A stretch of 41,431 bases of DNA from a virus: positions 1 to 41,431 of the IMG/VR virus record IMGVR_UViG_3300042887_004038; one strand, given 5' to 3'. The position numbers and the translations under genes are program-made. Under the pieces are notes generated by a model, which saw nothing but the letters and a program-made list of their open reading frames with translations, did no database searches and was not told where the DNA came from. Each line of letters opens with the position of its first letter. The first letter of the stretch is position 1. This document shows positions 2,537-37,409 of this stretch, in pieces.

Positions 2537-5467
2537 ATGGACATTGATGTTAAAAAACTAATTGAATTACTTCAAAAAGCAGCAGGCAGTAGTGAACGCA
2601 CACAAGCTTCGCAACAACAAGAAGTAAATGATCGTTCTGCTGCACCACTTAAAACAGATATCAAGGATCAAAAAACATTTAATGATCTTTTAGAAGAAGG
2701 CAAAAAAAAATATACAGATATTGATGAAAAAATTAGAATAGCAAGAGAAAACAAAAAAGCATTAATTGATGATGAACAGATTATTCTTGAATTGCAACAG
2801 ACTCAAACAGAAGAGTTAAAAAATCAATTTCAAATAAATCAAAAGAATTTATTAAATTTAATTGAACAACTTAAAGTTGGTAAAGAAAAAGGTACGCTCT
2901 CAGAACAAGAACAAAAAGATCTAAAAGAAAAAATAACAATATTAAAAGACATAACTTTCCTGCAAGGCAAAGATTTAGAAAAAATAGAAAAAGAAAAGAA
3001 ACTTAAAGAAGGTATACTTTCCATAGGTAAAGAAATATGGCAAGGTATAATGCAGCAGACAATCGCCTTAGACGCACACATAGTGAATATCAGCAAACTT
3101 AATGGTGGCTATGCTGAACATAACAGTAAGTTAAGAGAAGCAAATGTACAAATATATCAAGCAACCGCTGGGAGCGGTGTAATGCTTGAAGAAGCTAATG
3201 CTGCTCTAGCTGGTTTATCGCAAAATTTTATAGGTTTAACAACACAGTCACAAGAATCTATCAAAACAATGGCTACTGGTGCAGCATTTTTAACAAAATT
3301 AGGTGTTGATGCCGGTGTGGCTTCAAAGAGTATGGATAGTTTAGTTAATGCGATGGGTAAAACTCCTCAACAAGCATATAAAATACAAGAAAGCTTTGTT
3401 CAAATGGCGGCAAAGAATCGTTTAGCCTTGAGCGCAGTAAGTCAAGCATTTGGAGAAAACTCAAGTCGCTTTGTTGGCTATGGCGAAAAAATGACAAAAG
3501 TTCTTGAAGGTCTTTCAGAACAATCCTTAAAGACCGGAGTATCAATAGGAAAATTAGTAGCAATAGCACAGGGATTTGATACATTTGAAGATGCAAGTAA
3601 AAAAGTTGGTAATCTAAATGCGTTATTAGGTGGTGATTATTTTAATTCAATTGAATTATTGACTGCGAGTGATGAAGATAGAATAAAACTGTTAAAAGAA
3701 GGTGTTGCAGCAAGTGGTATGCAATTTGAAAGCATGAACCGTTTTCAAAAAATGGCAATTGCAAATGCTGCAGGTATTACTGACCTAAATGAAGCTTCAA
3801 AATTATTTGGTCAAACATCATTACAAAATACAAGACAACAAGACGAATCTGCAAAAGTTCAAAAAACACTCGCAGAACAAGCCGAAAGTGTCAGCACTTC
3901 TATGGATAAAATGAAAAGCGTAATCAACGGTGTTGTAATTGCGCTAGATCCGCTTATAGATATATTTAGAATTGTAGTTAACGGCTTAACGTGGTTTGCT
4001 AAAGCCGGTGGAGAAGCTGGAGAAAAATTAGGAGGCTGGGGAGGTAAAGTAATTACTGTTTTTGGAAGCTTAATAAGTCTTGCGGCGATATTAGCAGCAA
4101 AAAATTTATTATTAACAGGAAGTTTTGGACGAATTGGTTCCGTAATAGGTGGAGCTACTAAAAAATTATGGGGATGGATTGCTGGGAAAGAAGCTGCAAA
4201 TAAAATTCCAGATGCAGCAATACAAAGAACTACAAGTTCAAAATTAGATTCGGCTGCTGCTGGTCCTACCGCCGCCGCTGGACCTGGAAAATTTACATCT
4301 TTTATTAACAATATAAAGCCTGGTAATTTAATTGCTGCAGCAGGTGCTTTATTACTATTATCATTAGCCTTATTGGCATTAGGAATTGCATTACAGCAAT
4401 TTGCTGTTTTTGCTGGTATGTCAGAAAATAAAGCATCTGCTATAGGTATAGCTATTGCAACAATTGCAGGTCTAGTTGGTATATCTTACGCTTTAAATGC
4501 AGCAAAAGTTACTATTTCAACAGGCGTAATAGTATTAGCTATTATGTCTGGCTCTTTATTACTTCTTGGAATTGCACTACAATCATTTAGTAAAGTTGAT
4601 TGGAAATTAGTTGCTGGTGTTGGACTAATAATACTTGGATTGGGTTTAGCTATAGCTGGTTTAGGAATGGCATTAGCTGCCGGTCCACAAGCAATCACTC
4701 TTGCTATTGGTATAGGTGTCATAGTCACGATTGCTGCAGCCTTAGCTTTATTGGGACTAGCTTTGAAAACTATTGTTGATGCAATCGCTAACGCATCTCC
4801 TGCATTAAGTAATTTAGCTAATTCATTCAAGCAATTGTTTGAGATAAAAGATTTAAAAGATAAATTTTCTTCAATAGAGTCTTTTTTGTCTCAATTATCT
4901 AATATAGATTATGATCCGATCAATAAACTTGCAGATTCTGTTGGTACCTTGGCAACAAATTTTGAAAAACTATCCAGTATTTCAGCTAATCCATTTAAAC
5001 AATTGTTTGAAATAAAAGATTTAAAAGATAATTTTTCTTCAATAGAGTCTTTATTTTCTCAATTATCTAGTATAGATTATGATCCAATTATTAAACTTGC
5101 AGATTCTATTGGCATGTTATCAACAAATCTTGAAAAACTAGCTAGTATTTCATCTAATATGAGTATTAAAGGAAGTGTTGATGCCACAACAACAGAAAAT
5201 GTCAATCTAGCTGTTCAAGGAGTAGCAGAAAAAACAAGACAAATAAGTGAAGCATCTGCACAACAAAAACAATCCTTGATTCCAGTACAGCAAACAACGA
5301 CGTTTGTTCCTCTTATTGTTCAAATCAATGGAAAAAACATTATTGATGTATTAAGAAGAGATATACAGATTATTTCTGGTGAAGAAACATTAAGAATGAT
5401 GGATTCAACAGGAATAGTGCGGAGTTCTGATTACATACAATCTTCCCCAGTTGTAATAAAGGATTAA
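2537..5467 (+). CDS. Tape measure protein
   Basis: This is the largest gene of the tail block (976 residues). The N-terminal ~190 residues are lysine/glutamate-rich coiled coil. A globular helical region follows (residues ~190-450, with AAFLTKLGV and LNALLGGDYF). Three hydrophobic, probably membrane-active stretches lie at about 595-626, 633-684 and 690-752. A tandemly duplicated 56-residue unit starts at 764 and 820. Tape measure proteins fill the tail lumen, set tail length and help form the DNA channel in the host membrane. By the usual ~1.5 angstrom per residue this length would predict a tail near 145 nm, which is an inference. Start supported by AGGAA 9 bases upstream. Downstream gene follows after 5 bases. 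Confidence 0.88.
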   Translation: MDIDVKKLIELLQKAAGSSERTQASQQQEVNDRSAAPLKTDIKDQKTFNDLLEEGKKKYTDIDEKIRIARENKKALIDDEQIILELQQTQTEELKNQFQINQKNLLNLIEQLKVGKEKGTLSEQEQKDLKEKITILKDITFLQGKDLEKIEKEKKLKEGILSIGKEIWQGIMQQTIALDAHIVNISKLNGGYAEHNSKLREANVQIYQATAGSGVMLEEANAALAGLSQNFIGLTTQSQESIKTMATGAAFLTKLGVDAGVASKSMDSLVNAMGKTPQQAYKIQESFVQMAAKNRLALSAVSQAFGENSSRFVGYGEKMTKVLEGLSEQSLKTGVSIGKLVAIAQGFDTFEDASKKVGNLNALLGGDYFNSIELLTASDEDRIKLLKEGVAASGMQFESMNRFQKMAIANAAGITDLNEASKLFGQTSLQNTRQQDESAKVQKTLAEQAESVSTSMDKMKSVINGVVIALDPLIDIFRIVVNGLTWFAKAGGEAGEKLGGWGGKVITVFGSLISLAAILAAKNLLLTGSFGRIGSVIGGATKKLWGWIAGKEAANKIPDAAIQRTTSSKLDSAAAGPTAAAGPGKFTSFINNIKPGNLIAAAGALLLLSLALLALGIALQQFAVFAGMSENKASAIGIAIATIAGLVGISYALNAAKVTISTGVIVLAIMSGSLLLLGIALQSFSKVDWKLVAGVGLIILGLGLAIAGLGMALAAGPQAITLAIGIGVIVTIAAALALLGLALKTIVDAIANASPALSNLANSFKQLFEIKDLKDKFSSIESFLSQLSNIDYDPINKLADSVGTLATNFEKLSSISANPFKQLFEIKDLKDNFSSIESLFSQLSSIDYDPIIKLADSIGMLSTNLEKLASISSNMSIKGSVDATTTENVNLAVQGVAEKTRQISEASAQQKQSLIPVQQTTTFVPLIVQINGKNIIDVLRRDIQIISGEETLRMMDSTGIVRSSDYIQSSPVVIKD
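4826..5161 (+). repeat. Tandem in-frame duplication (2 x 168 bp) inside the tape measure gene
   Basis: Copies 4826-4993 and 4994-5161 are diverged direct repeats of 56 codons. Both encode FKQLFEIKDLKD, then SSIES, then DYDP and KLAD at matching places. The period is an exact multiple of three, so the tape measure frame is kept. Confidence 0.9.
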
Positions 5468-5472
5468 TAATT

Positions 5473-6261
5473 ATGGTTAATGTTCCAAATACAGATAAAA
5501 GTGCGCAAGTAATAATAACTTCGCTTGCACATAAAAATGTAAAAAATAAAAATATTCAAATTAGTTTTTTTCCTTATGATTTTGAATTTGATGATTCGTA
5601 TAAACCCGAATGGGGAACATATGAGGGATTCGGAAGAATGGATCCAATAATGACTTACAAGAGAACAACGCGAGAGGTAAATCTTAGTTTTAACGTTGTT
5701 GCTGAAAATTCAAAGATGGCCAAAATTAATTTTATAAATCTTCAAACTTTTATAAAATGTTTGTATCCAGATTATAAATCTGTTGATTTAAGTACTACAG
5801 CTCAAGCATTACAAGAGAGAAGAGATAAACTTCTTCCACAAATAGAAGAAAAAAGGGCAGCACAACAACTTGAAGAAACACAAAGACTTAATGAAGGGGA
5901 ACCACAACAAAGTCTTATTGAAGATGAACTATTCCAAGAAGGAGAAGCTATTGATAACGAACCTTTACGTATGGAAGCGCAACAGGCCGAAACACTATTG
6001 ACTCAAGAAATTCAAACAATCAGTGACTTTGGAGTAAACGTAATTAATAAGTCTCCATTATTTCAAATTTCATTTATGAATTTATTAAATAAACAACAAT
6101 TTGTTGCTGCCATCACATCATTTAAACATAAAATGAAATTTGATGCTGCCGACACAAGTTTTTCGAACGGTCAAGCGATACCCGGTGAATTTAGTATTAA
6201 TATAAGTTTTAAAGTATTGCACACTGATATTCCTGGTAATAGATTAAATTATGGGTTTTGA
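5473..6261 (+). CDS. Putative tail tube initiator/connector-type baseplate protein
   Basis: The 262-residue product starts 5 bases after the tape measure gene. Residues ~25-100 contain FFPYDFEFDDSYKPEWGTYE and then a TREVNLSFNVVAEN strand, a pattern like the small baseplate proteins that connect tail tube and hub in contractile systems. A glutamine/glutamate-rich coiled-coil insertion occupies about 115-185. A second beta-rich part (PLFQISFMNLL, then SFKVLHTD) closes the protein, so the fold looks like a beta domain split by a helical insert. Adjacent LysM-like and hub genes support a baseplate role. I do not recognise a named homologue, and assignment rests on position and pattern. Confidence 0.5.
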   Translation: MVNVPNTDKSAQVIITSLAHKNVKNKNIQISFFPYDFEFDDSYKPEWGTYEGFGRMDPIMTYKRTTREVNLSFNVVAENSKMAKINFINLQTFIKCLYPDYKSVDLSTTAQALQERRDKLLPQIEEKRAAQQLEETQRLNEGEPQQSLIEDELFQEGEAIDNEPLRMEAQQAETLLTQEIQTISDFGVNVINKSPLFQISFMNLLNKQQFVAAITSFKHKMKFDAADTSFSNGQAIPGEFSINISFKVLHTDIPGNRLNYGF

Positions 6262-9121: not shown

Positions 9122-10396
9122 ATGAAATATAAAAACACACAAGATAAATACTTGCAGGAAATGAACAAAATAGCAGATCAGGCCGATCTGTATTCTACCG
9201 ATCCAAAATATAGAATAATTCCACAAGGAAATAATAACCTAACAACAAAAATTTTATATTACCAAAGATTAAATTACGAATCAGAATTTAATAATGTAAA
9301 TTTAATGAATGGAGTAATTCCAGAAAATTTTAAAGATTATCTTTATTCGCATCAATTATACGGAAAGTTAAATTTAAATAATGATATTATCAATATTGAT
9401 GAAAACAAATTAAAAAGCTTAGACGCAGATCAAAAATTAATGCTTGTTTCACCGGCAGCTGATGCTTTTAATGCATTGTATAGTCGTCACAAGCGTTTAA
9501 TAGATTCAAATGTTATAAGTTCAAAAAGTAAGTTTTACAATATAAAACCAAAAAAAGCATTTATTTCTGCAAATTTACAACATTCTGAATATATCAATGT
9601 TTATTTTAACAAATTTTATGACTTTATCAACAATAATAATTTAAATAACAAAATTATTAATTTTAAAACATTTATAAAATATTTTATATTTTTTTACAAT
9701 CAAAGCGACAAGATATTTAATAAAACAGAGTTTATGAGAACTACTGCATGTTCTCCTTATTGTTCTGGTCTAGTTGTTGAGATCAGTCCGGATAAACATG
9801 GTGATGATAAAAAATCATATGAAAATTATTTAATTGACGAGTCTTTCGGTATATTTGATACCTTATCAAAACAACACGGCTTTGTAATGGATAAACATTC
9901 TCCTTGGAGATTGACTTTTGATATTGCTGGGGCAAATGCTAAACAATATTTACAACCTTATGATACTCAAGAGCTAAACTCTTATTTTGATCAATTTTAT
10001 TATTTTACTGAATATTTCAACTTTGAAAGTTTAAAGATTTATTTATTAAATTTATTTAATTTTATTGTACAAGAACAACCAATTGCAAGAAGTGTGGAAA
10101 CAAGTTTTAAAAATGGTAAAGCGTGCATATATGAAAAACAAATTTTAAGAGAATTTATAAGATACGAAGATCTGTACAATCAGATGCCAGAAGAAAATTT
10201 ATTAAAATTATATTTTTACATAAAAGTAAAAGAAAATAACATAATTTCATCTGACAGTCAATTTGAACAGATGTTTTCTGAAATTTTGACAATTAATAGA
10301 TATAATGGAAATATTGCTGTTTTTGATTTTATTAATAATAAATGTAAGAGTGCAAGAGACACCGGCGATATAAAATATACAAGAACATTCCTATAG
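9122..10396 (+). CDS. Hypothetical protein at end of the tail operon
   Basis: The 424-residue product is rich in asparagine, tyrosine and lysine. I recognise no family. The middle contains a hydrophobic aromatic stretch (about 180-200, FKTFIKYFIFFYNQ) and a FMRTTACSPYCSG segment with two cysteines, followed by an alternating helical C-terminal half. It follows the hub gene by 9 bases and is the last gene before an early-type promoter, so it is probably a late structural or assembly protein. No signal peptide. A baseplate wedge component is possible but not shown by sequence. Confidence 0.6.
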   Translation: MKYKNTQDKYLQEMNKIADQADLYSTDPKYRIIPQGNNNLTTKILYYQRLNYESEFNNVNLMNGVIPENFKDYLYSHQLYGKLNLNNDIINIDENKLKSLDADQKLMLVSPAADAFNALYSRHKRLIDSNVISSKSKFYNIKPKKAFISANLQHSEYINVYFNKFYDFINNNNLNNKIINFKTFIKYFIFFYNQSDKIFNKTEFMRTTACSPYCSGLVVEISPDKHGDDKKSYENYLIDESFGIFDTLSKQHGFVMDKHSPWRLTFDIAGANAKQYLQPYDTQELNSYFDQFYYFTEYFNFESLKIYLLNLFNFIVQEQPIARSVETSFKNGKACIYEKQILREFIRYEDLYNQMPEENLLKLYFYIKVKENNIISSDSQFEQMFSEILTINRYNGNIAVFDFINNKCKSARDTGDIKYTRTFL

Positions 10397-10434: not shown

Positions 10435-11616
10435 ATGACTTACCTAACGCTAGACGATAAAAGTGAATGCATCGGGTTCTATTCTAATGGCGAACTTGTA
10501 TTTGGTCAAGCCCCGGTTGAAATTTTAGATAAAACTTGGAAATATTCAAAATTTAGCAATAATAATACTTTATATGCTAGTCTTTTTTGTGAAGGAAAAG
10601 ATTATGAGGAAGCGTGTCCAGAACATCTAAAAGATCTTTGGACATTACTTAACACACAAGCAAAATCATTTATTCGTTCTTTTATTGAAGCAAAGGTTTC
10701 ATTAAAAGAAAATTGTTTTTACGATCTTGTTCCACGCAAATTTTTAATTGATTTTTGTGATATTAAGTGTCAGATAATTGATCATGTTATAGAAAACAAT
10801 CCAAAACCAATTGATTATGAATTTCAAAAAGATTTATCAATCTTGATCCAAGATATCTCGTTTCAAAAACTGTCATTTGATGAAAGCTTGATTAAAAACA
10901 ACTTACATGATAATAAAGTAAAAGAGTTTCATCAAAAATACTCCAACAGAGATAACTTGATTGTTTATAATCAGTTCCATTCAAAAACTGGTCGGTTGAC
11001 AACAGATGATAATAGTTTCCCAATTTTGAACTTAAGCAAAGACTTGAGAGGCTTCATTAAACCAGATGGAGACTTCCTGCTTGATATTGATTATAATGCT
11101 GCAGAAGTTCGTATGTTTCTTGCTCTAAGTGGACTCAATCAGCCTATTAATGATATCCATGAGTGGAACCGAGTTAAATTTGGTTACGATGATAGAAAAG
11201 TGGCAAAAAACGAATTCATTTCTTGGTTGTATGGTAAGAAGAATGAAAAAGAAAAGCAATTTAAAGAAATTTATAACTCAGACTTAATTAAGAAGAAGTA
11301 TTGGGATGGAAGAACAGTTAAAAATCATTATGGCAAATTCATTGAAGCAGATGAGTTCCATTCAGTAAATTATATTGTTCAAAGTACGACAGCAGGTCTT
11401 GCCTTGAGGCAAGCATTAAAAGTAAATGAATTACTAAAAGATAGTCAATCAAAGATTAAAATTGTTATTCATGATAATGTGATTATTGACATGAAAAAAG
11501 AAGATAAACACTTGGTTCAACAAATTGTTGATGTATATAACAATACTGAGTTTGGTAAATTTAAGTCATCGGTTAAGATTGGCAAGACTTTGGGAGATAT
11601 GAGGAAAATAATATGA
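10435..11616 (+). CDS. Compact family A DNA polymerase (no 3'-5' exonuclease domain)
   Basis: Only 393 residues, against ~600-930 for most Pol I-type enzymes. All polymerase motifs are present in order: template-binding S-K-T-G-R-L near 183-188; motif A around D217-I-D219-Y-N-A-A-E-V-R; motif B R254-x3-K258-x7-Y266-G267; motif C I-H346-D347-N348. The usual HDE of motif C is HDN here; the catalytic aspartate is kept. The N-terminal ~170 residues are too short and lack the DxE/ExoII/ExoIII pattern, so there is no proofreading domain. It should be a DNA-dependent DNA polymerase for repair, primer processing or replication. A full DnaE-type polymerase is encoded 22 kb away. It overlaps the next gene by 4 bases. 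Confidence 0.85.
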   Translation: MTYLTLDDKSECIGFYSNGELVFGQAPVEILDKTWKYSKFSNNNTLYASLFCEGKDYEEACPEHLKDLWTLLNTQAKSFIRSFIEAKVSLKENCFYDLVPRKFLIDFCDIKCQIIDHVIENNPKPIDYEFQKDLSILIQDISFQKLSFDESLIKNNLHDNKVKEFHQKYSNRDNLIVYNQFHSKTGRLTTDDNSFPILNLSKDLRGFIKPDGDFLLDIDYNAAEVRMFLALSGLNQPINDIHEWNRVKFGYDDRKVAKNEFISWLYGKKNEKEKQFKEIYNSDLIKKKYWDGRTVKNHYGKFIEADEFHSVNYIVQSTTAGLALRQALKVNELLKDSQSKIKIVIHDNVIIDMKKEDKHLVQQIVDVYNNTEFGKFKSSVKIGKTLGDMRKII

Positions 11617-12455
11617 TTTCTTTGGTTGGAATAGGTAGTTTTTGTTCTGAGCTTGTAAATAAGTTTTCTTCATATCCTCAATATGAAGTTTATAGCATAG
11701 ATACAAGCGACAATGAATGTAATACATTTGTCATGCCAGAATTTAAAAATTCTGAAGAATATGAAAAAAAGTGTTCAAAAGAATTAAAAGATTTCATTGT
11801 TGACAAGAATGATGAAATATCGGTATTTGTTGATGGTTCGGAACCTATAAGTGGAATAATACTTGCATTTTTAGAAAACTTTAAAAAAAGAAAGATCAAT
11901 GTCTATTATGTTCGTTCTGATTTAGAATTAATGGGTAATATTGAAAAATTGCAAGATAAGATTACATTCAGTATTTTGCAAGAATATACAAGATCCGGAT
12001 TGTTTAAAACCTTTGTAGCTTTTGATAAAATAAATTTAGAAAAAATACTGAATCAAGTTAGTATTCTAGAAATGAACGATCAGTTAACTAACTTAATTTC
12101 TTCTACTTCTCATTATATTAACATTTATAGCAATATAAAACCTATATTGTCTAATAACATAGAATTAAGTGATATAACAAGAATCCAAACCTATGGATTA
12201 TCAGAAATAGGCACTACAGAAGTAAAGTGGTTTTTTGAATTGAATAATATAGAAGAAATTGTTTATTACTTTGCTATCAATTCAAACACACTGAAAAAAG
12301 AAAAAAATCTGTTACAAACCATCAAGTCTCAGATTAAAGAAAAACAAAAAGAAAATGTTAAAATATTGTTTCAAATATATGAAACAAACTACCAAGAAAA
12401 TTTTGTTTATTGTGTCGCAAAAACCAAGTTCATCCAGCCTCCGAGCCAGACTTGA
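11613..12455 (+). CDS. Divergent FtsZ/tubulin-like protein
   Basis: I match this 280-residue protein by eye to the FtsZ fold. The start LVGIGSFCSELVN fits FtsZ's first glycine-rich loop and YEVYSIDTSD the next strand. VFVDGSEPISG stands where FtsZ has its GGGTGTG signature. YYVRSDLEL, a helix LQEYTRSGLFKTFVAFDKIN and KIL fit the region ending in the NDKL segment. A helix (SILEMNDQLTN...) then ELSDITRIQTYGLSEIG fits the DFADVRTVM...GxAMMG part. The GTP-binding glycines are largely lost, so it may bind nucleotide weakly or not at all. It is translationally coupled to the polymerase (ATGA overlap). Jumbo phages use a tubulin (PhuZ) to centre replicating DNA; whether this one polymerises is unknown. 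A generic Rossmann protein remains possible. Confidence 0.5.
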   Translation: MISLVGIGSFCSELVNKFSSYPQYEVYSIDTSDNECNTFVMPEFKNSEEYEKKCSKELKDFIVDKNDEISVFVDGSEPISGIILAFLENFKKRKINVYYVRSDLELMGNIEKLQDKITFSILQEYTRSGLFKTFVAFDKINLEKILNQVSILEMNDQLTNLISSTSHYINIYSNIKPILSNNIELSDITRIQTYGLSEIGTTEVKWFFELNNIEEIVYYFAINSNTLKKEKNLLQTIKSQIKEKQKENVKILFQIYETNYQENFVYCVAKTKFIQPPSQT

Positions 12456-12480
12456 CAAGCGAAGTGATCTCTGCTAAGAT
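12452..12480 (+). promoter_or_regulatory. Consensus sigma70-type promoter with leader hairpin
   Basis: TTGACA (12452-12457), 17 bases, TAAGAT (12475-12480). The -35 box overlaps the stop of the tubulin-like gene. The short leader can fold: CACCGA at 12492-12497 pairs with TCGGTG at 12513-12518, with an inner ACC/GGT stem. The AAAGGA ribosome site at about 12526 follows. Confidence 0.82.
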
Positions 12481-12538
12481 TGGTCCATCATCACCGAAGA
12501 CCCAAGCGGTTGTCGGTGCTCTAACAAAGGAACTCAAA

Positions 12539-12925
12539 ATGTCAAAAGTAACTGTTAATCGTCGTGGTCCAACCGGAAAAGCCGGACGTGTAACGCTTTC
12601 TCACCTTCGTGCAGGAGAAACTTTCCGTTTTCCACGTTCAGCTACGGGAACTGTATATCAACTACTTTCAGTTAGTGCTCGTTCATTGGAAGAAGGAACC
12701 CTAGATGAAGTAGATTCATTTATGTTTGCAAATGTAGCTACTGGTCAAGTATATGCGACTGAAGATAGCCGTGCAGTAGTTCCAGTAGATTGTTCACTCA
12801 CAGTACGTGATCGTGTAGCTGCTACCACTACTTCTACGCGTGCAAAGAAGTCAGCAGCTTCAGGTCGCGTTACTGCAACCCGTGCTCGTAACGTAGTAAA
12901 GACTAAGAGCCGTTCACGTAGCTGA
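12539..12925 (+). CDS. Small basic protein, function unknown
   Basis: Starting at ATG 12539 (AAAGGA 8 bases upstream) the product has 128 residues. An upstream in-frame ATG at 12410 would place the start before the promoter and inside the previous gene, so it is not used. Residues ~15-90 form a compact beta-rich domain with a repeated idea: LRAGETFRFPR...TGTVYQLLS and later VATGQVYA...AVVPV. The last ~40 residues are a lysine/arginine/serine/threonine tail with no acidic residues, suited to binding nucleic acid. It has its own promoter and terminator, so it is a monocistronic, probably well-expressed early gene. GC content is visibly higher than its neighbours. I do not recognise a family. 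Confidence 0.7.
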   Translation: MSKVTVNRRGPTGKAGRVTLSHLRAGETFRFPRSATGTVYQLLSVSARSLEEGTLDEVDSFMFANVATGQVYATEDSRAVVPVDCSLTVRDRVAATTTSTRAKKSAASGRVTATRARNVVKTKSRSRS

Positions 12926-13115: not shown

Positions 13116-13853
13116 ATGGGTATTGATATTCGTGCTATGCAGAAAAAACTTGAGAAGCTCAACAACAAAGGTAAATCAAATTCAGAATCAGCCTTTTGGA
13201 AGCCAGAAGATGGGCTTCACGAAGTGCGTGTTCTGCCAACGCCAGATGGTGATCCGTTCAAGGAGTTCTGGTTCCATTATAATGTTGGAAGCCAGAGTGT
13301 AATGTGTCCAAAGCGTAATTTCGGAGAAGATTGTCCGATTTGCGAATTTGCAACCAAGCTATTCAAATCAGGTGAACCTGACAGCGTAGCTGCTGCAAAA
13401 GAACTTTTCGTTCGTCAACGTTTTCTTTCACCAATCCTTGTTCGGGGAAGTGAAAAGGACGGAGTAAAGGTATGGTCATACAGCAAGGTCGTTTACGAGG
13501 AACTTCTAAAGACTGTTCTTGACCCAGATTTTGGAGATATTACTGATCCAGAAAACGGATTTGATTTGAAAGTTGATAAGAACAAGAAACCTGGTGCTCG
13601 GTATTCAATGATGGGCGTAAAGCCTAAACCAAAGTCAACCCCAATGTGCAAGGGACTTGATAGTCAGGAGTGTAAAGATCTGCTGGATAGTATTCCTGAT
13701 CTTTCAGCTATCTTTACGAGAATGACCACAAAGGAAGTGCAGGCTGCATTGGATAAGCATCTTGCTGAACCAGATGAAACCAGTGTAGGTGTGGAAAAGG
13801 GTGGTGGCGTTGATAACGCTGTAGACGCTGCCATTCGTGAACTAGACCTTTGA
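13116..13853 (+). CDS. Single-stranded DNA-binding protein, T4 gp32-like
   Basis: The 245-residue protein has the gp32 zinc signature in its core. H54 is followed by C64-x8-C73-x2-C76 (MCPKRNFGEDCPIC), close to T4 gp32's H-x12-C-x9-C-x2-C. The N-terminal ~25 residues are basic (RAMQKKLEKLNNKGKS), like the cooperativity domain, and the C-terminus is acidic and ends in IRELDL, like the partner-binding tail. It would coat ssDNA at replication forks and load UvsX. Strong AAGGAG ribosome site 8 bases before ATG. It stands alone between two terminators and is followed by uvsX, a classic functional neighbour. Confidence 0.88.
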   Translation: MGIDIRAMQKKLEKLNNKGKSNSESAFWKPEDGLHEVRVLPTPDGDPFKEFWFHYNVGSQSVMCPKRNFGEDCPICEFATKLFKSGEPDSVAAAKELFVRQRFLSPILVRGSEKDGVKVWSYSKVVYEELLKTVLDPDFGDITDPENGFDLKVDKNKKPGARYSMMGVKPKPKSTPMCKGLDSQECKDLLDSIPDLSAIFTRMTTKEVQAALDKHLAEPDETSVGVEKGGGVDNAVDAAIRELDL

Positions 13854-13946: not shown

Positions 13947-15113
13947 ATGGCAGCAAGAATTAAAGAAAAACAAGAAGTAAAAGTCGGTAAAGTAGACGTT
14001 GCTGAATTGAGGAAATCTCTTAATTCAAAACTAAAAGGCGCTGTATTTGATCTAAAAAAAGAAAATCCAACTGACGTTAAAGAGTGGATTTCTACCGGAT
14101 CTACTTGGCTTGATGCTATTGTGGCAAAAGGCAAGATGGGTGGTATTCCCGTTGGAAAAATTATTGAACTAGCAGGGCTACAATCTACCGGTAAAAGTTA
14201 TCTCGCAGCCCAAATTGCTGGAAATGCACAAAAGCAAGGTATCACTCCAGTATACTTTGATGCCGAGAGTGCTTTGAATAGTGAATTCTTAGAAAAAGCA
14301 GGATGCAATGTGGATGATTTGATTTATATTCAACCACCCGATCTTGAAACCGTATTTGAAACCATTGAAACATTGATGGGAACAAGTGATCAGAAGTACT
14401 TATTTATTATTGATAGCCTTGCTGCTACGCCAACAAGAGTTGATACCGAGGGAACATTTAATCCAAATGAACGGATCGGTGTAAAGGCTGCACTATTGTC
14501 AAAAGCATTTCCAAAAATAACTACACCTCTTGCCCAAAGAGAATGTACGCTATTAATTTTGAACCAACTAAAAATAAACATTAAAGCAACAAGTGAAGCC
14601 CCAATGAATGGAAAGTATTTGACTGACAGCCAGAAATATAATACTCCTGGCGGAAGTTCACCAGATTACTTCACCAGTCTTCGTATATGGCTCACAAAGT
14701 CATTTGCCAAAGATAGTATGGTATATGACGACAAAGGCTATCAGATTGGTTCTAATGTCAAAGCACGCATAGAAAAAAGTAGGTTCGGAACGCAGAACCG
14801 TGTTGCAGAATTCAAAATCCTATGGGGAGACACAGTCGGCGTAATGAACGAAGAAAGTATACTTGAAGCAATCAAGGGCAAAACAGATCATCTTGAAAGC
14901 GGCGTATGGAATAAGCTAACTTATGCCGACGGAACAGTAGAAAAATGGCAAGGTCTTGAAGAAGGGTTCACTAAACTAATGAAGACCAATGATAAATTCA
15001 AACAACGCGTTATGGAAATTTTTGATTATGAAGTAATTCAGAAGTTTGATAAAAAAATTGGCAATGCGTCAGATTTCCTTAATGATGGCGCGGGAGAAGA
15101 TGTTCAGCGTTGA
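13947..15113 (+). CDS. uvsX: RecA/UvsX-like recombinase
   Basis: The 388-residue protein has the RecA core. Walker A is G77-L-Q-S-T-G-K83-S, followed by DAESALNSEFLEKAG (the RecA 'DAE' segment). Walker B is near residue 150 (YLFIIDSLAA). A loop-2-like region runs LILNQLKIN through NTPGGSSPDYFTSLRIWL, where RecA binds ssDNA. It is slightly longer than RecA and matches T4 UvsX in size. It would drive strand exchange and recombination-dependent replication with the SSB encoded just upstream. RBS GAGGAG at about 10 bases. It has its own promoter built into the SSB terminator and ends at a terminator at 15125. Confidence 0.9.
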   Translation: MAARIKEKQEVKVGKVDVAELRKSLNSKLKGAVFDLKKENPTDVKEWISTGSTWLDAIVAKGKMGGIPVGKIIELAGLQSTGKSYLAAQIAGNAQKQGITPVYFDAESALNSEFLEKAGCNVDDLIYIQPPDLETVFETIETLMGTSDQKYLFIIDSLAATPTRVDTEGTFNPNERIGVKAALLSKAFPKITTPLAQRECTLLILNQLKINIKATSEAPMNGKYLTDSQKYNTPGGSSPDYFTSLRIWLTKSFAKDSMVYDDKGYQIGSNVKARIEKSRFGTQNRVAEFKILWGDTVGVMNEESILEAIKGKTDHLESGVWNKLTYADGTVEKWQGLEEGFTKLMKTNDKFKQRVMEIFDYEVIQKFDKKIGNASDFLNDGAGEDVQR

Positions 15114-17020: not shown

Positions 17021-17070
17021 AGCATGTAAAAGTAATACATGCTATGATCCCCCCTTATGGGGGGATTTTT
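17021..17070 (+). terminator. Double hairpin terminator
   Basis: First hairpin: AGCATGT (17021-17027) with ACATGCT (17037-17043). Second: ATCCCCCC (17047-17054), a TTAT loop, GGGGGGAT (17059-17066), then T run. The C6/G6 stem with T run is a typical strong terminator. The first arm may act as an anti-terminator or a second block. Confidence 0.85.
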
Positions 17071-17086
17071 ATTTATGGGTAATAAA

Positions 17087-18055
17087 ATGAAAAAAATATT
17101 GATAATTGATTTTCTGAACTTGTTCATTCGTTCTTATGTTGTCAATCCTTCTATTTCCAAGCAAGGACAGCCTGTTGGTGGAATAGTTGGTGTTTTCAAA
17201 TCTTTACAAAAAATTAGTCGCGAGACAAAACCAGACAAAATCATTATTTGTCATGATGGACCTGGCGGCAGCATGAAGAAGAAAGCTCTTCACAAGGATT
17301 ATAAAGAGGGTAGAAACCCATTGCGTCTTAATAGAAACATACAGGTCTTAGATGAAAAGCAAGAATTTGAAAATCGTATCTGGCAACAGTTCAAAACTTT
17401 TGATTATCTGAATCTTTGTCCGGTAATCCAATTAATGGAAGAAAATGTTGAAGCAGATGATATCATCTCTTATGTTGTTCAGCACAAAAATCATAAAAAT
17501 TATGTAAAAGTAATTGTATCCAGTGATAAAGACTTTATTCAATTATTGGACGATAAAACTATACTAATGCGACCTGTTCAAGAAGAGATCTTAAACAAGA
17601 ATCGTGTTATTGAAGAATTTAAGATCCATCCAAACAATTTTGCTCTTGCTCGTTCTATTGTGGGAGACAAAAGTGACAATCTTGATGGTGTTCGTGGTGT
17701 TGGATTGGTAAATTTAGCTAAGAAATTCCAATGGCTTGCCGAAGAAGAAAGATATACCACTGATGATATATTTGAGAAATGTGAAAACACCAAAGAAGGT
17801 GGAAAAATATTTGAAAGTATATTAGCAGAAAAAGAAAAAATATGCTTAAACTACCAAATTATGCAACTCTATCAGCCAAACATGTCTCTTCAGTCGCAAC
17901 GCAAAAGTGATTATGTTTTAGACAATTTTATACCAGAATTTAACAAAACAGAATTTTTAAAATCTTCCATTATGGATGGATTTGCTGATTTAAATTTAAA
18001 TGAATTATTTACTACTTTCAATAGGATGATAAATGATCACAAGACCACGCCTTGA
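17087..18055 (+). CDS. 5'-3' exonuclease/flap nuclease (T4 RNase H / FEN-like)
   Basis: From ATG 17087 the protein has 322 residues. An alternative ATG at 17075 adds four residues; one at 17057 lies in the terminator loop and is unlikely. It begins KKILIIDFLNLFIRS with the first metal aspartate. It contains EENVEADDIISYV (acidic metal cluster), VSSDKDFIQLL (another metal site) and the helix-3-turn-helix GDKSDNLDGVRGVG that grips DNA. This is the T5 exonuclease/T4 RNase H family, which removes RNA primers and flaps on the lagging strand. No start-site SD is obvious. The helicase gene follows after a promoter. Confidence 0.88.
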   Translation: MKKILIIDFLNLFIRSYVVNPSISKQGQPVGGIVGVFKSLQKISRETKPDKIIICHDGPGGSMKKKALHKDYKEGRNPLRLNRNIQVLDEKQEFENRIWQQFKTFDYLNLCPVIQLMEENVEADDIISYVVQHKNHKNYVKVIVSSDKDFIQLLDDKTILMRPVQEEILNKNRVIEEFKIHPNNFALARSIVGDKSDNLDGVRGVGLVNLAKKFQWLAEEERYTTDDIFEKCENTKEGGKIFESILAEKEKICLNYQIMQLYQPNMSLQSQRKSDYVLDNFIPEFNKTEFLKSSIMDGFADLNLNELFTTFNRMINDHKTTP

Positions 18056-18100: not shown

Positions 18101-19501
18101 ATGGCCATAAAAAACGAACCTTCACTTGGTTCTTTTGGAAAAGAATTCCAAGAGAAACTTGTTCAACTAATTCTAGATGATTCAATTTTTGCCTCACAAA
18201 TAAGTGAGGTATTAGATATTAATTTCTTTGAATTAAAATACCTACAAGTATTTGTAGATTATGTATTTAAGTATAACCAATCATATGGTTGTTTTCCAAA
18301 CCGTTCAACCGTAGAAACAATTTTACGGTCAGAGCTTGAAAAGCAAACACCTGTAATGCAAAAACAGGTACGTGATTATTTTGCGCGTGTTCTTTCCGGA
18401 AACATTGAAGATATTGAAGATGAATATGTAAAAGATAAAAGTCTTGATTTCTGCAAAAAGCAGAAACTAAAAGAAGCAATGTTAAAGAGTGTTGGTCTGA
18501 TGGAATCTTCTTCATTTGACGAAGTTGCTAAAACTATTAACAACGCTCTTAAGCTTGGACTTGACACTGAACATGGGTATGAATTTTTAAAGCATTTTGA
18601 AGAGCGATATAAACTCAAATCACGCGATCCAATTTCAACCGGCTGGGATGTTATTGATAACTTTATCCAAGGAGGTCATGGAAAAGGAGAGTTGGGTGTT
18701 GTTGTTGCTCCAACAGGTGCAGGTAAAAGCATGATACTTGTCCATCTTGCCGCACAGGCAATGAAGCAAGGAAGAAATGTTGTTTATTACACACTAGAGC
18801 TTGGAGATACAATTATTGGAAGACGTTTTGACAGTTGTATAACTGGCTTTCCTCTTAAGCAATTAAATTTTGTTAAAGAAGAAGTTTTCGAAAAAGTTAG
18901 AGACATTCCCGGCAAGCTTATAATTAAAGAATATCCAACGAAATCAGCTTCAACAGAAACGTTGAGAAATCACCTTAAGAAACTTGAACAAAGAGATTTT
19001 AAGGTAGATATGATAGTGGTTGATTATGGAGATCTATTGAAGCCAGTAATGGCTCAAAGAGAGAAACGAAATGAATTGGAAGGTATTTATGAGGAACTTC
19101 GCGGTATTGCAGCAGAACTTAAGTGTCCTGTTTGGACAGCCTCACAAACCAATCGTTCAGGTCTAAATGCCGAAGTAGTAACGATGGAAAGTATTAGCGA
19201 AGCGTTTAATAAATGTTTCGTTGCAGATTTTATCTTCTCACTCTCCAGAACAGCTACGCATAAACAAAACAATACAGGACGTATTTTTATTGCAAAAAAT
19301 AGAAATGGTCCGGATGGTGTTGTTCTCCCGATTTTCATGGATACGTCAAATGTAGAGATTAAAGTGATGGAACCTACAAATGAATCAATAGATGAAATCA
19401 ATAAAAACTCTGCGGCAGAACAATCTAAGAAATTAAAAGAAAAATACGCAAAACACAAAAAAGAACAGAAAGAATTAACCGGAGGAAATACAAATGGATA
19501 A
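18101..19501 (+). CDS. Replicative DNA helicase, DnaB/gp41-like
   Basis: The 466-residue protein has an N-terminal helical domain (to ~170) like the DnaB primase-interacting domain and a RecA-type motor. Walker A is A203-P-T-G-A-G-K209-S. A following YYTLELGDTIIGRRF segment is the DnaB H1a region. Walker B sits near residue 305 (DMIVVDYGDLLKP), and WTASQTNR is motif H3. The arginine-finger region NRNGPDG is near 405. The last 35 residues are lysine-rich and disordered. It unwinds DNA at the fork as a hexamer. Its final codons overlap the RNR start, so the two are translationally coupled. Confidence 0.9.
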   Translation: MAIKNEPSLGSFGKEFQEKLVQLILDDSIFASQISEVLDINFFELKYLQVFVDYVFKYNQSYGCFPNRSTVETILRSELEKQTPVMQKQVRDYFARVLSGNIEDIEDEYVKDKSLDFCKKQKLKEAMLKSVGLMESSSFDEVAKTINNALKLGLDTEHGYEFLKHFEERYKLKSRDPISTGWDVIDNFIQGGHGKGELGVVVAPTGAGKSMILVHLAAQAMKQGRNVVYYTLELGDTIIGRRFDSCITGFPLKQLNFVKEEVFEKVRDIPGKLIIKEYPTKSASTETLRNHLKKLEQRDFKVDMIVVDYGDLLKPVMAQREKRNELEGIYEELRGIAAELKCPVWTASQTNRSGLNAEVVTMESISEAFNKCFVADFIFSLSRTATHKQNNTGRIFIAKNRNGPDGVVLPIFMDTSNVEIKVMEPTNESIDEINKNSAAEQSKKLKEKYAKHKKEQKELTGGNTNG

Positions 19502-21563
19502 AGCAAGCAAAATATTGTCAGATGTAACAGTTTTTTCACGATATGCCAAGTTTGATGAAAAACTAGGACGACGTGAAAATTGGATTGAGTTGGTTGATCG
19601 TAATAAAGCAATGCATATTTCTAAATTTCCTGATCTAAAAGATCAGATTGAAGAAGCATATAAATTTGTTTATGACAAAAAAGTTCTTCCATCAATGCGC
19701 TCAATGCAATTTGGTGGTAAAGCAATTGAAGTAAACAATTCACGCATTTATAATTGTTCATTCCAACACATTGATAGTATTCATAGTTTTAACGAAACTA
19801 TGTTTCTACTGCTTGCTGGTTGTGGTGTAGGTTATTCAGTTCAGAAAAAACACATTGAAAAACTACCTCCGGTTACAAAGCCAACAAAAGGAGAAAAGAA
19901 GTTTCTCATTGGTGACAGCATTGAAGGTTGGGCTGACTCTGTAAAGGTATTGCTAAAATCATACATGCAATCAAACTCACCAAAAATTCGTTTTGATTAT
20001 TCATCAATTCGCGCCAAAGGTACACCAATTAAAACTGGTGGAGGTAAAGCACCCGGTCCAGAACCACTAAAGCGAGCACTTGATAATGTTCGTGGTATCC
20101 TTGACAGTGTAGAAAGCGGAGAACAACTTCGTTCAGTACAAATTCACGACATTCTTTGTCATTTGGCTGACGCTGTTCTTGCTGGTGGAATCCGACGTTC
20201 AGCAATGATTTCATTGTTTGATATTGATGATGAAGTGATGCTTACCTGCAAGAGTAATTTTAAGCTTGTAAGTTATGAGCCAATTACTATTACAAAGCAT
20301 GATCAATATGGCAATCAAGTTAAGCTTGAAGTACGTTCTGTTGATGAGGCTACAAATACCACCTACAAACGTCTTAAAATGGCCTACAGTGACCCAGCGT
20401 ATGGTGTCCGCACCGTTGAGGCGGATGTAGCAGAACATGACATTCCGTTCTTTTTAGATAGCGGTATTGTTCCATGGTTTTATGTTCAAGAACAACGCGG
20501 TCGTGCAAACAATAGTGTTGTTATTGTGCGTCACAAAATGAAAGACAAAAGCGACTTTGAACGTATTTTAAAGATTACTGAAGAAAGCAAAGCTGGAGAA
20601 CCAGGTATTTTTTGGACGAACAATCCAGATTGGGGAACAAATCCATGTGGTGAAATTGGCTTGAGGACCAATCAATTCTGTAATCTTTGTGAAATCAATG
20701 CTAGCGATCTTGTTGATCAAGCCGATTATGAAGCTCGCGTAAAAGCTGCGGCATTTATTGGAACTCTACAAGCTTCATATACAGATTTTCATTATCTCCG
20801 TGATATTTGGCGAAAGACAACAGAAAAAGAAGCACTTCTTGGTATTGGTATGACTGGTATTGCAAGTGGAAAAGTCTTACAACTTGATATGGCCTCTGCA
20901 GCAGAAATAGCAATAAAAGAAAACGAAAGAATGGCAAAAGTTCTTGATATTAACAAAGCAGCCCGCGTAACAACTGTAAAACCAAGTGGTACAACTTCTT
21001 GTGTTCTCGGTTCAAGCTCTGGTATTCATGCTTGGCATAGCGACTTTTATCTACGTCGTATGCGTCTACTAAAAACAGAAACGATGTATGGTTATCTAAA
21101 AATGTTCCATCCAGAACTTCTTGAAGATGATGCTTTCAATAAAAACAATGGTATTCTTGTATTACCACAAAAAGCACCAGAAGGTGCCATTACAAGAAAT
21201 GAAACCGGTATTGAGCAACTTGAGCGTATGAAGAAAGTATATCTTGATTGGGTCCAAGGTGGGCATAAGAGAGGAGACAATACACACAATGTTTCTATCA
21301 CTGTATCAGTCCGAGATGGTGAATGGGCAGAAGTTACTGATTGGATGTGGAACAATAAAGATAGCTATGCAGCAATCTCTTTACTGCCTCATTCTGATCA
21401 CACTTATCATCAGGCACCGTTCCAAGACATTGGCGAAGCTGAATATAAACAGCGTATGGAACAATTAGTTAGTGTTGATATTGATATGATCCGTGAAGAT
21501 CAAGACTATACAAATCTTTCTGGAGAAGCAGCTTGTAGTGGTGGAGCTTGCGTCGTGACTTGA
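19494..21563 (+). CDS. nrdJ: Class II (adenosylcobalamin-dependent) ribonucleotide reductase
   Basis: The 689-residue protein reads as a monomeric B12-dependent ribonucleotide reductase, making deoxynucleotides from ribonucleotides. The glycyl-free class II/I core motif NPC385GE387 is followed by NQFCNLCEIN. The partner cysteine lies in YNCSF near residue 88. The C-terminal redox pair is C681-S-G-G-A-C686. No NrdB, NrdG or NrdD-type glycyl site is seen. Compared with what I remember of this family, about 65 residues are inserted between DDEVMLTCKS and QRGRANNS (residues ~262-327). The ATG overlaps the helicase stop region with GGAGGA upstream. Host or phage must supply cobalamin. Confidence 0.9.
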   Translation: MDKASKILSDVTVFSRYAKFDEKLGRRENWIELVDRNKAMHISKFPDLKDQIEEAYKFVYDKKVLPSMRSMQFGGKAIEVNNSRIYNCSFQHIDSIHSFNETMFLLLAGCGVGYSVQKKHIEKLPPVTKPTKGEKKFLIGDSIEGWADSVKVLLKSYMQSNSPKIRFDYSSIRAKGTPIKTGGGKAPGPEPLKRALDNVRGILDSVESGEQLRSVQIHDILCHLADAVLAGGIRRSAMISLFDIDDEVMLTCKSNFKLVSYEPITITKHDQYGNQVKLEVRSVDEATNTTYKRLKMAYSDPAYGVRTVEADVAEHDIPFFLDSGIVPWFYVQEQRGRANNSVVIVRHKMKDKSDFERILKITEESKAGEPGIFWTNNPDWGTNPCGEIGLRTNQFCNLCEINASDLVDQADYEARVKAAAFIGTLQASYTDFHYLRDIWRKTTEKEALLGIGMTGIASGKVLQLDMASAAEIAIKENERMAKVLDINKAARVTTVKPSGTTSCVLGSSSGIHAWHSDFYLRRMRLLKTETMYGYLKMFHPELLEDDAFNKNNGILVLPQKAPEGAITRNETGIEQLERMKKVYLDWVQGGHKRGDNTHNVSITVSVRDGEWAEVTDWMWNNKDSYAAISLLPHSDHTYHQAPFQDIGEAEYKQRMEQLVSVDIDMIREDQDYTNLSGEAACSGGACVVT

Positions 21564-23986: not shown

Positions 23987-25387
23987 ATGTTTTTTTATAG
24001 TGAACAAATACCATCAATTGTCGTTCCGTTACATTTAACTTCTAGCTTCAATAGCTTAAGCTTTCCATCTACCTGTATCGGTACAAGTAGTTTATTAAGT
24101 GTTTATGTGTCGGCAGCACAACTATCTGGTTCAACAGTTGAAATAGTATCGGTTGGAGATGATTCTGACCAATTTGATCAAACACCTTTAAGCTTTGCTT
24201 TAACAGGCGGTGTAACAAGTCAAATAATTGATATCACTTTTACACCAACAAGTTGGGGTCTCAAAACAGCAACTGTTATATTGAGTGCCAGTAATGGTAG
24301 TGTTATAAACGTTTCGTTGGAAGGTATGGCAGCTGCTGTGCCATTGGTGTTAACGTCAAGTGTTAATTCACTTTCATTTGGAACAACAACTGTAAATACA
24401 ACTAGTTCTATGAATGTTGTTATTTCTGCTGGTGGTTTCACCAGTGTTGTAGAAACTGTAACCTTAAGCGATAATTCAAATCAATTTAGTTTCTCACCGG
24501 CTAGTATTGAATTAACCGGTAGTGGAACAAGCAAAACAGTTGCAGTGACTTATTCACCAACTATAACCGGCTCGGTAACCGGAACATTGACATTAAGTTC
24601 TAGTGGTGGCAATACAAAAAACATTTCATTATCAGGTGATACCGGTGTTGCTGCAACTTCTGTTGTTTTTAACAGGATGGCTGCAACTAATAACTGGTCA
24701 CCAAATTATGTTACACTAAATCTAACTGGCGCAATGGCTGGTGATTTGTTGGTAGTTTACGCTAGCCGCACTTCTCAAAATCAATATAACGTTCCGTATT
24801 GTCTTGTATCAAGTTCTGCTGGAAGTAATTGGCGTAACTTAGCAGATAATAAAATTGCCGCTGCAGCTTTTAATAGTTATAGTGGAGTATTGACAACTTA
24901 TTGGAACTGTAGTGGCAATAACAATGGAACTGTTGCAAACACATACTATGGAGAAGCTTTCGTAGATATGAAGCGTTTAACTGCAACAGATTTATCTGGT
25001 CTTGTTAAGGTTGGATGTTTTCAAGGAAATATCAATTATATGGTTATAAGAAATGTTAATTCTTATGATATTCTTAAAGATTCTTCTGGTGTAGCAATCA
25101 GTAAAATACTGCGACCTGACGGTAGTAGTGGTAATTATTCTTGGCCAGTTACTAATACAAATATAACAAATTCAACACAAAAACTGCTTATCGTTGGTAA
25201 ATTAGCATCTGGTGTTGCAAGTATTCCTGGCGTTTCAGATAGTTCAGCATATACTAGTACAAAACTGTTTGACGTCGGTGCTGCTCAATTAACCGGTTCA
25301 ACAGTGCCATTTAATCTTACAAGAACTGCTACAGAAGTAAACAATCGCTATCCTTTCGGTTCGTTTGTGGCAATAGTAATAAATTGA
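23987..25387 (+). CDS. ASH/Ig-like repeat protein, probable fibre or surface decoration
   Basis: 466 residues. Two tandem ~100-residue beta-sandwich units (about 15-117 and 118-215) each start with L-T-S-S-x-N-S-L-S-F and end in x-x-x-x-I-S-L-S-G-type strands, as in ASH/HYDIN 'choice-of-anchor' Ig-like domains. Residues 220-466 form a different beta-rich region with V-F-N-R-M-A and repeated S/T/N runs, perhaps a receptor-binding or anchoring part. GGAG site 11 bases upstream. Such domains decorate heads, tails or fibres of phages. The gene is flanked by cell-wall hydrolases and ends at its own terminator. Confidence 0.7.
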   Translation: MFFYSEQIPSIVVPLHLTSSFNSLSFPSTCIGTSSLLSVYVSAAQLSGSTVEIVSVGDDSDQFDQTPLSFALTGGVTSQIIDITFTPTSWGLKTATVILSASNGSVINVSLEGMAAAVPLVLTSSVNSLSFGTTTVNTTSSMNVVISAGGFTSVVETVTLSDNSNQFSFSPASIELTGSGTSKTVAVTYSPTITGSVTGTLTLSSSGGNTKNISLSGDTGVAATSVVFNRMAATNNWSPNYVTLNLTGAMAGDLLVVYASRTSQNQYNVPYCLVSSSAGSNWRNLADNKIAAAAFNSYSGVLTTYWNCSGNNNGTVANTYYGEAFVDMKRLTATDLSGLVKVGCFQGNINYMVIRNVNSYDILKDSSGVAISKILRPDGSSGNYSWPVTNTNITNSTQKLLIVGKLASGVASIPGVSDSSAYTSTKLFDVGAAQLTGSTVPFNLTRTATEVNNRYPFGSFVAIVIN

Positions 25388-26045: not shown

Positions 26046-26066
26046 TTATTGGTGGTAGGTATTTTT

Positions 26067-27239
26067 ATGAAATTTGAAAGAAAAGTTAATGTTGGCATTA
26101 CAGTTTTGGTTGATAAGCCAAACGATTCTTTGTTTACGAATGGTATTCGCCAAAACGTTATTACATTAAGAGATGTTTATGAAAAATGTCGTAATGTTGA
26201 AAACGCTTATATAATAAACACAGCATCAGAAAAGATTCCATTAGACACAACAGGTCCATGGAAAGATTATGCTAAGCATATGATAAGTCTTGATGAAGCA
26301 AAAGAAAAATGTGATCTTATTGTTGTAGGTCAAGGTTCAATGCATCGTGATCGTTATCGCGATTTCAAGAAGCTTGGCAAAAAAATTGTTAAACAAATCA
26401 TGGGCGCTGAATTATCAGTCTTTAATGAAACTGTTTTATTTAAACCAAACGAAGAAGCAAGAAATATCTATTTAAGAAACTCAGGAACGGTTAGTGCTGT
26501 TTGGTTATCTCCTCACTTCTTTGATAGAGATAGATACTTGTTTGAAGCACAATATGGTTGCCCAACTTATATTGGTCCCTATATTTGGGATCCAAGATTT
26601 ATTGAAGAACACGCAAGATTGTTAAATGCTTCAAATCCAAAAGACTTTCCAGGAAAATATACACCATCTGGATTAAAGCAAAAACGTATTTCAACAATGG
26701 AACCAAATATCAATATGGTGAAAACCAGCTTGGTTCCTATCATAACCACAGAACTTTTCTATAGAAAAAATCCTGATTTATTAGAAAGATTAAATGTGTT
26801 TTGTGGAGAAAAGATTAAAACAAAACCAGACATGGTAACATTTGTAAAAGAACTTGATAGTTATCTTGCTAAAAAAATGTTCTTTGAAGCAAGATATCCA
26901 ATGACTTGGACTTTACAAAAACATACAGATATTGTTTTAAGTCATCAAAACCAATGTGAATTAAATTATGTATACCTTGATGCTTCTTGGCTTGGTTATC
27001 CTGTTATTCATAACAGTCCATTCATGAAAGAGCTTGGTTGGTATTACAATGAAAATGATGTTGTAAAAGCTGTAGAGCATTTAGCATATGTTGCTGAAAA
27101 CTTTGATGATAATGAATATCTTAACGATGAGTATCTTAAAAAATCACGTGAATTCTCGTACCGTTATATGGTAGACAATCCAGAAAATGTTCGTGGCTAT
27201 GAAAGATTGATTGAATTGGCAATGGACAGTAAAATATAA
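26067..27239 (+). CDS. DUF2827-like GT-B glycosyltransferase
   Basis: From ATG 26067 (GGTAGG ahead) the product has 390 residues. It starts VNVGITVLVDKPNDSLFTNGIRQNVI, close to the start of the DUF2827 family, and has VVGQGSMHRDR and a C-terminal sugar-nucleotide-binding-type half (LSHQNQCELNYVYLDASWLGYP, then VIHNSP). DUF2827 proteins are predicted GT-B glycosyltransferases that modify surface polysaccharide or, in phages, perhaps virion proteins or host receptor sugars. Substrate not readable. It lies between the lysozyme and a tiny basic gene with no separate promoter seen. Confidence 0.65.
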   Translation: MKFERKVNVGITVLVDKPNDSLFTNGIRQNVITLRDVYEKCRNVENAYIINTASEKIPLDTTGPWKDYAKHMISLDEAKEKCDLIVVGQGSMHRDRYRDFKKLGKKIVKQIMGAELSVFNETVLFKPNEEARNIYLRNSGTVSAVWLSPHFFDRDRYLFEAQYGCPTYIGPYIWDPRFIEEHARLLNASNPKDFPGKYTPSGLKQKRISTMEPNINMVKTSLVPIITTELFYRKNPDLLERLNVFCGEKIKTKPDMVTFVKELDSYLAKKMFFEARYPMTWTLQKHTDIVLSHQNQCELNYVYLDASWLGYPVIHNSPFMKELGWYYNENDVVKAVEHLAYVAENFDDNEYLNDEYLKKSREFSYRYMVDNPENVRGYERLIELAMDSKI

Positions 27240-37152: not shown

Positions 37153-37409
37153 AACAAATAAAAGAAGAGAATAGGTCTCACAAAGACAAAGAAAAAGAAC
37201 TCAAACAAAAGTTGAACATGTTTGATAAGTTAGGCGACTGTTGTCTTACTTGCAATAAACCGTTTGACAAAAAAGACAAAGAACAAGTAAAAAGCTGGTT
37301 CGTTGTGGTAAAAAATGCTGAAAATAAAGTGAACCTCTACTGTCCAGATTGCTGGGGTAAAGCAACTGCACTCGTCCAACAAGTAATCAATGGAGAAAAT
37401 AATGATTAA
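37149..37409 (+). CDS. Small zinc-binding protein
   Basis: 86 residues with C-C-L-T-C near 30 and Y-C-P-D-C near 67, the two halves of a zinc site. The N-terminal ~25 residues are a very charged helix. The arrangement GDCCLTCNKPFDKKDKEQ...LYCPDCWG is one I recall from other T4-like phages as a conserved unknown. Its end overlaps the IMPDH/GMPR gene start. Confidence 0.7.
   Translation: MKQIKEENRSHKDKEKELKQKLNMFDKLGDCCLTCNKPFDKKDKEQVKSWFVVVKNAENKVNLYCPDCWGKATALVQQVINGENND

Follow-up and report, generated by a model that had tools for sequence, protein, structure and literature searches.

A predicted tubulin-fold protein of uncultured phages lacks the T7 catalytic loop and is encoded beside a minimal family A DNA polymerase

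The relatives of tubulin and FtsZ are familiar chiefly as GTPases that form filaments, and the phage member PhuZ centres phage DNA. Family A DNA polymerases are known to take accessory subunits, such as thioredoxin with T7 gp5 and POLG2 with Pol gamma. In FtsZ, the phosphates of the nucleotide are held by loops T1–T4 and its ribose by T5, with T6 taking part in binding of the base; two aspartates of a further loop, T7, promote GTP hydrolysis of the adjacent subunit (PMC8936486). PhuZ, encoded by phiKZ-like jumbo phages, forms GTP-driven filaments and possesses a T7 catalytic aspartate (PMC3678025, PMC4244570). The protein described here resembles PhuZ in being phage-encoded and, by its predicted fold, a member of the tubulin superfamily, but belongs to a family that has neither T7 nor helix H8, and whose gene is tied to that of a DNA polymerase. 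It was found in a 41 431 nt stretch of viral DNA (IMG/VR record IMGVR_UViG_3300042887_004038; this entire stretch is termed the window below), where an ORF at positions 11613–12455 of the plus strand specifies 280 aa.

This ORF had been proposed in a first-pass annotation of the window, and its relatives bear it out, as IMG/VR homologues at 60–98 % identity keep the full frame. Comparison with six relatives of its own clade gave pN values of 0.11–0.31 and pS values of 0.60–0.74; against the nearest relative the values were 0.007 and 0.18, respectively. As nonsynonymous change was far below synonymous change with all of the relatives compared, 11613–12455 is a constrained, selected gene rather than a decaying one, and strong purifying selection acts upon it. 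A GAGGAA sequence lies ∼10 bases 5′ of the ATG, and the ATG itself overlaps, as ATGA, the TGA of the preceding ORF (10435–11616). The latter specifies a family A DNA polymerase, so that the coupling to a polymerase asserted from the sequence alone is likewise upheld.

The fold of the 280 aa protein was predicted using AlphaFold2. With 112 diverse sequences, the set that also underlies the family alignment and the residue counts given below, a model with a pLDDT of 95.3 and a pTM of 0.92 was obtained; an earlier run with 10 close sequences had been poor (pLDDT 58), although Foldseek nonetheless ranked FtsZ first. The model contains an N-terminal Rossmann-like domain, the long central helix H7 and a C-terminal α/β domain, with elements in an FtsZ-like order up to S6-H6-H7-S7-S8-H10-S9-S10. 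The best 50 PDB matches returned by Foldseek were all FtsZ or TubZ, near full length, with TM scores of 0.64–0.73. FtsZ shares the whole fold and was aligned over essentially its full length (TM ∼0.7), albeit at 9–14 % identity, whilst TubZ, the plasmid and phage partition tubulin (4ei7/4ei8), was matched in the same search with an E-value of ∼7e-11. The tubulin fold claimed in the first-pass annotation has therefore survived structure prediction and structural search, both domains being present and only FtsZ and TubZ appearing in the top 50, and the model supports placement of the product in the tubulin/FtsZ superfamily by fold.

At the level of sequence, the relationship to tubulins was not usefully detected by single-sequence or profile searches (Pfam, PHROGs, NCBIfam and PDB sequences). 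The window protein had no match to Pfam PF00091, for which its relatives reached an E-value of 0.05 at best in a protein scan, below the cut-off, and BLAST and HMMER searches made no connection between the family and PhuZ. Profile–profile alignment of the family with PhuZ gave a score of 44.3 (P 2e-5) over the first 100 residues, aligning T1 (CGGAGFRIG in PhuZ, GLGxAGCxIA in the family), the end of S2 (IDT and ID, respectively) and the T4 loop. As the maximum from 60 column shuffles was 20.4, a chance match is excluded; the reversed profile scored 22.1, whilst comparison with two further families of phage proteins gave ∼17 or less. The score against the FtsZ profile was marginal (23.3 versus a shuffle maximum of 20.9). 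Here T1 was paired with T1 and T4 with T4, whilst positions 139 and 159 (numbering of the window protein), the sites of N139 and N159 in the family, were aligned with the FtsZ Asn residues of the PNDKL motif and of H7, respectively. The glycine-loop (T1) and NDKL-like matches to FtsZ, previously drawn from the sequence alone, were thus recovered by an independent profile alignment. That the product is some other Rossmann-type protein without a tubulin fold is barely conceivable: T1 does weakly resemble NAD-binding domains in sequence-only searches, but a confident whole-length model with both domains and the central helix, best 50 PDB matches consisting entirely of FtsZ and TubZ, and a PhuZ profile score twice that of the best shuffle all speak against it, and this candidate was rejected because the AlphaFold2 model and the Foldseek matches contradict it.

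The connection between H7 and S7 (residues 174–190, positions 12132–12182 on the plus strand) contains neither the catalytic acid pair of T7 nor helix H8. This stretch is of equal length in 112 of 112 sequences, with no conserved acid pair in residues 172–190, and the model also lacks helix H9 between S7 and S8. A segment previously equated with T7 ('D-F-A-D-V') could not be sustained as such, there being no conserved acidic pair, no T7 motif and no H8. T7 and H8 are absent across the whole family. The family differs from FtsZ in having no T7 motif, H8, H9 or GGGTGTG loop and in not being a cell gene, and from TubZ in having no T7 motif and in being linked to a polymerase, not a partition operon. 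With T7 missing, canonical interfacial GTP hydrolysis should be impossible in the family; the usual protofilament contact would likewise be without its lower face, and a tubulin-superfamily protein of this kind should not form a canonical GTPase filament. The first-pass suggestion that the protein may serve as a scaffold and not as a filament would be in line with the absence of T7 and H8. A rival explanation is a cytoskeletal, nucleotide-independent scaffold that would polymerize without GTP hydrolysis and would place the phage replication machinery or DNA in the cell, much as PhuZ does with phage DNA, the polymerase being made alongside as cargo. The tubulin fold, the closest profile relation being to PhuZ and the position of the gene among replication genes are in keeping with this; it is nevertheless unlikely, given that the family lacks the T7 motif and H8, which in FtsZ belong to the longitudinal interface, and that the nucleotide pocket within that interface is destroyed in several clades.

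Uncultured phages also encode a canonical FtsZ-like protein (L174/L199 family), which is likewise a phage-borne member of the tubulin superfamily and sometimes present in the same genome. Unlike the family described here, it is ∼364 aa in length, has a full GGGGGTGS loop and is encoded elsewhere in the genome, not beside the polymerase. One member, at 1027–2121 on the minus strand of L174 (record G008), matches the FtsZ profile with a P value of 2e-10; DNA-pattern searches for a second GGGTG-type loop returned chance sites only, apart from this G008 gene. The canonical family (L199–L278) was seen in at least 107 uncultured-phage stretches, and the polymerase-coupled protein was also found in 7 of 20 such records.

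Most members of the polymerase-coupled family have a recognisable guanine site, made up of a GLGxAGC T1 loop, an xG[SA]GxISG T4 loop, Asn139 in H6 (92 of 112 members) and Asn159 in H7 (98 of 112). In the window protein, T1 (residues 6–12, 11628–11648, plus strand, as for the other motifs of this protein) reads GIGSFCS, having lost the alanine and third glycine of the family motif. T4 (residues 74–81, 11832–11855) reads DGSEPISG, with Glu77 in place of a loop glycine. The guanine-contacting residues of H6 and H7 are replaced by Lys139 (12027–12029), at the FtsZ PNDKL Asn position, and by Thr159, at the base-contacting Asn position of the central helix (residues 151–173, 12063–12131). The degenerate GTP loop recognized at first pass is therefore real at T4, and neither DGSEPISG nor the family consensus is a canonical GGGTGTG-type loop. 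Several lineages have lost the pocket. Among them is the window's clade (SH-aLRT 100; seven sequences), whose changes consist of DGSEPISG in T4, Pro to Ser in T5, Asn to Lys in H6 and a varied H7 position.

In 20 of the 112 members, the window's clade among them, T4 has an acidic residue at position 76 or 77. Asn139 was lost in 19 of these 20 versus 1 of the 92 others (Fisher 3e-19) and Asn159 in 14 of 20 versus 0 of 92, counts and a Fisher value that are affected by the shared ancestry of the sequences. On a tree built without those columns the T4 acid trait underwent ∼8 changes, and an independent-pairs test using strongly supported branches, with ∼3 informative pairs, gave 3 : 0 (p 0.25). 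From these alignments, repeated and concerted loss of the pocket across lineages is well suggested. Q123, R127 and S128, within the sequence QEYTRS at residues 123–128 (11979–11996), are invariant in 112 of 112 sequences, even in members with a destroyed pocket, which suggests that the indispensable surface of the family probably lies elsewhere than the nucleotide site. These patterns also bear upon the idea of a nucleotide sensor, in which bound GTP, dGTP or an alarmone would regulate the polymerase in most members, the window's clade being sensor-dead. Whilst a sensor would be consistent with a family that has no hydrolytic loop, and in which T1, T4 and the H6 and H7 Asn residues are kept together in ∼80 % of members and mostly lost together elsewhere, several lineages have lost the pocket yet kept both gene and linkage, and the T4 loop is half canonical at most, intact members included; we consider it quite unlikely.

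The partner encoded at 10435–11616 (plus strand) is a minimal family A DNA polymerase of 393 aa that matches the palm and fingers part of Pol I (Pfam PF00476, 4.5e-9) and has motifs A, B and C intact; an exonuclease domain was not found in this ORF. D219, R254, K258, Y266, H346 and D347, which belong to motifs A–C, are kept in 111–113 of 113 polymerases, with the motif A Asp and Glu, the motif B Arg/Lys/Tyr and the motif C His-Asp essentially invariant among these relatives. With such intact motifs, the polymerase should be an active enzyme. Directly after the motif C Asp, where Pol I has the Glu of HDE, 77 of the 113 sequences have Ser, 14 have Asn and 22 have Glu. At the position corresponding to F762 of Pol I, Phe is found in most, Ile in the window's clade and Thr in another clade; a connection of this change with loss of the pocket was set aside, as it rests on two clades.

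Wherever a contig has sufficient flank it carries both genes, with the polymerase upstream: every contig with the polymerase alone ends inside the polymerase gene, and every contig with the tubulin-like gene alone begins at most ∼2 kb upstream of it. For 105 distinct tubulin-like genes the polymerase ORF was also recovered, and 83 of them overlap it or lie within 10 bases; in the other 22 there is a spacer, often of ∼300 bases, or inserted genes. In L030, the nearest relative of the window, the two are separated by a GIY-YIG endonuclease-like ORF (4794–5528). This linkage weighs on a further explanation, namely that the protein is a decoy that caps or poisons host FtsZ filaments and blocks division, with the polymerase neighbourhood merely setting early expression. 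An FtsZ-like fold without T7 does resemble a filament-capping subunit, and some phages inhibit host division, lambda Kil being one example (PMC3961180). A gene for host takeover would not be expected to stay so strictly linked, across wide divergence, to a single polymerase family, however, and the sequence profile is nearer to PhuZ than to FtsZ, such that we give a decoy function little credence.

Relatives were reached by searching with the partner polymerase and then reading the gene downstream of it. In most of 66 polymerase loci the homologue was the next long ORF; in L030, L057 and L084 it lay one or more genes beyond that position, and the remaining few loci end inside the polymerase gene. 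At least 594 matching stretches were found in IMG/VR. There was no match to the window protein in isolate phages, Pfam, PHROGs or NCBIfam, and no tblastn match in isolate phages for two query polymerases. A search of GTDB genome contigs with short conserved patterns, which a diverged copy could escape, found no cellular copy. The family has thus been found so far only in uncultured phages. An earlier comparison with jumbo phages holds in part, the longest contigs with the polymerase-coupled protein being ∼150–203 kb. Keyword searches of the open-access literature, to which subscription papers and preprints mostly do not belong, gave no listing that describes such a protein. Within the databases and papers searched, the family has no counterpart, nor do its pairing with a polymerase and the loss of its catalytic parts; the fold was already known.

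The order of an orphan gene of the type at 9122, the polymerase, the tubulin-like gene, gp32 SSB, UvsX, 5′ exonuclease and helicase is kept over wide divergence, with small insertions. In the window, the conserved orphan ORF (9122–10396, plus strand, 424 aa) lies directly upstream of the polymerase, as was the case in 12 of 12 loci compared. Its family had no match in Pfam and ranges from about 390 to 490 aa across the compared loci, and it may represent either a tail gene or a third component. Downstream, on the same strand, are a gp32-like single-strand DNA-binding protein (13116–13853), a UvsX/RecA-like recombinase (13947–15113), a 5′–3′ exonuclease (17057–18055), encoded in the same cluster as the polymerase, and a DnaB-like replicative helicase (18101–19501). 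Between the tubulin-like and SSB genes, the window's clade has an ORF of uncertain start (12410–12925, plus strand) that differs from the small ORFs at that place in L094 (10252–10506), L062 (10033–10266) and L068 (10429–10677), the first of which weakly matches WYL_2 (Sm-like barrel).

The window contains two DNA polymerases of different families, as a DnaE-type (Pol III alpha) enzyme with a PHP domain (32364–35786, plus strand) is present in addition to the bare family A enzyme. The DnaE-type polymerase was also found in 12 of 14 related records, and a family B enzyme in 0 of 14. Elsewhere in the window are a 466 aa protein (23987–25387) that contains an Ig-like domain of the ASH/HYDIN type (Pfam PF15780, 7e-13), which is best known from proteins of cilia and centrosomes; an IMP dehydrogenase/GMP reductase-type protein of guanine nucleotide metabolism (37390–38436; Pfam PF00478, 3e-101); a ribonucleotide reductase (19494–21563; PHROG 367), which weakly matches the B12-dependent insertion domain; and a DUF2827 protein (26049–27239; 2.7e-83).

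The overlap of the two genes, the strictness with which they occur together and the lack of an exonuclease domain all point to an accessory subunit. This tubulin-superfamily protein, whose family has so far been seen in phages only, constantly accompanies a bare family A polymerase at the genetic level, and we place at roughly 50 % the probability that it is a non-filament accessory subunit of that enzyme. As an accessory subunit, the tubulin-like protein would be made in step with the polymerase by virtue of the overlapping genes and would form no GTPase-driven filaments, because the catalytic loop and H8, a helix at the filament interface, are missing. It would bind the polymerase as a clamp, tether or replisome adaptor, and would supply the processivity, or the link to SSB and UvsX, that an exonuclease-less polymerase lacks. 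In most relatives, binding of a guanine nucleotide would probably regulate or stabilize the subunit, whilst in the window's clade nucleotide control would have been lost and the subunit would be constitutive. Such a protein would be analogous to thioredoxin and POLG2 as a borrowed fold serving as polymerase partner, although the folds are unrelated. Several considerations count against a subunit: genes may be linked through shared timing and not through any binding of their products, which could explain part of the pattern; a filament might conceivably assemble without T7; and most members keep a guanine pocket that would be needless for a plain scaffold. That the tubulin fold acts specifically as a stoichiometric subunit of a DNA polymerase holoenzyme, with a guanine switch lost for good in several lineages, is a tentative proposal that we hold with some doubt.

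A protein that kept the fold, dropped the parts concerned with hydrolysis and the filament interface, and was tied to a polymerase would be a clear non-cytoskeletal use of the tubulin fold. A large tubulin-fold family beside a polymerase suggests that a cytoskeleton fold has been reused in DNA copying, and phage replication gains a candidate new accessory factor. A thinly populated part of the tubulin superfamily gains hundreds of sequences, and the natural lineages with a dead pocket permit a test of what nucleotide binding serves. If a role as polymerase subunit were demonstrated, it would be categorically new.
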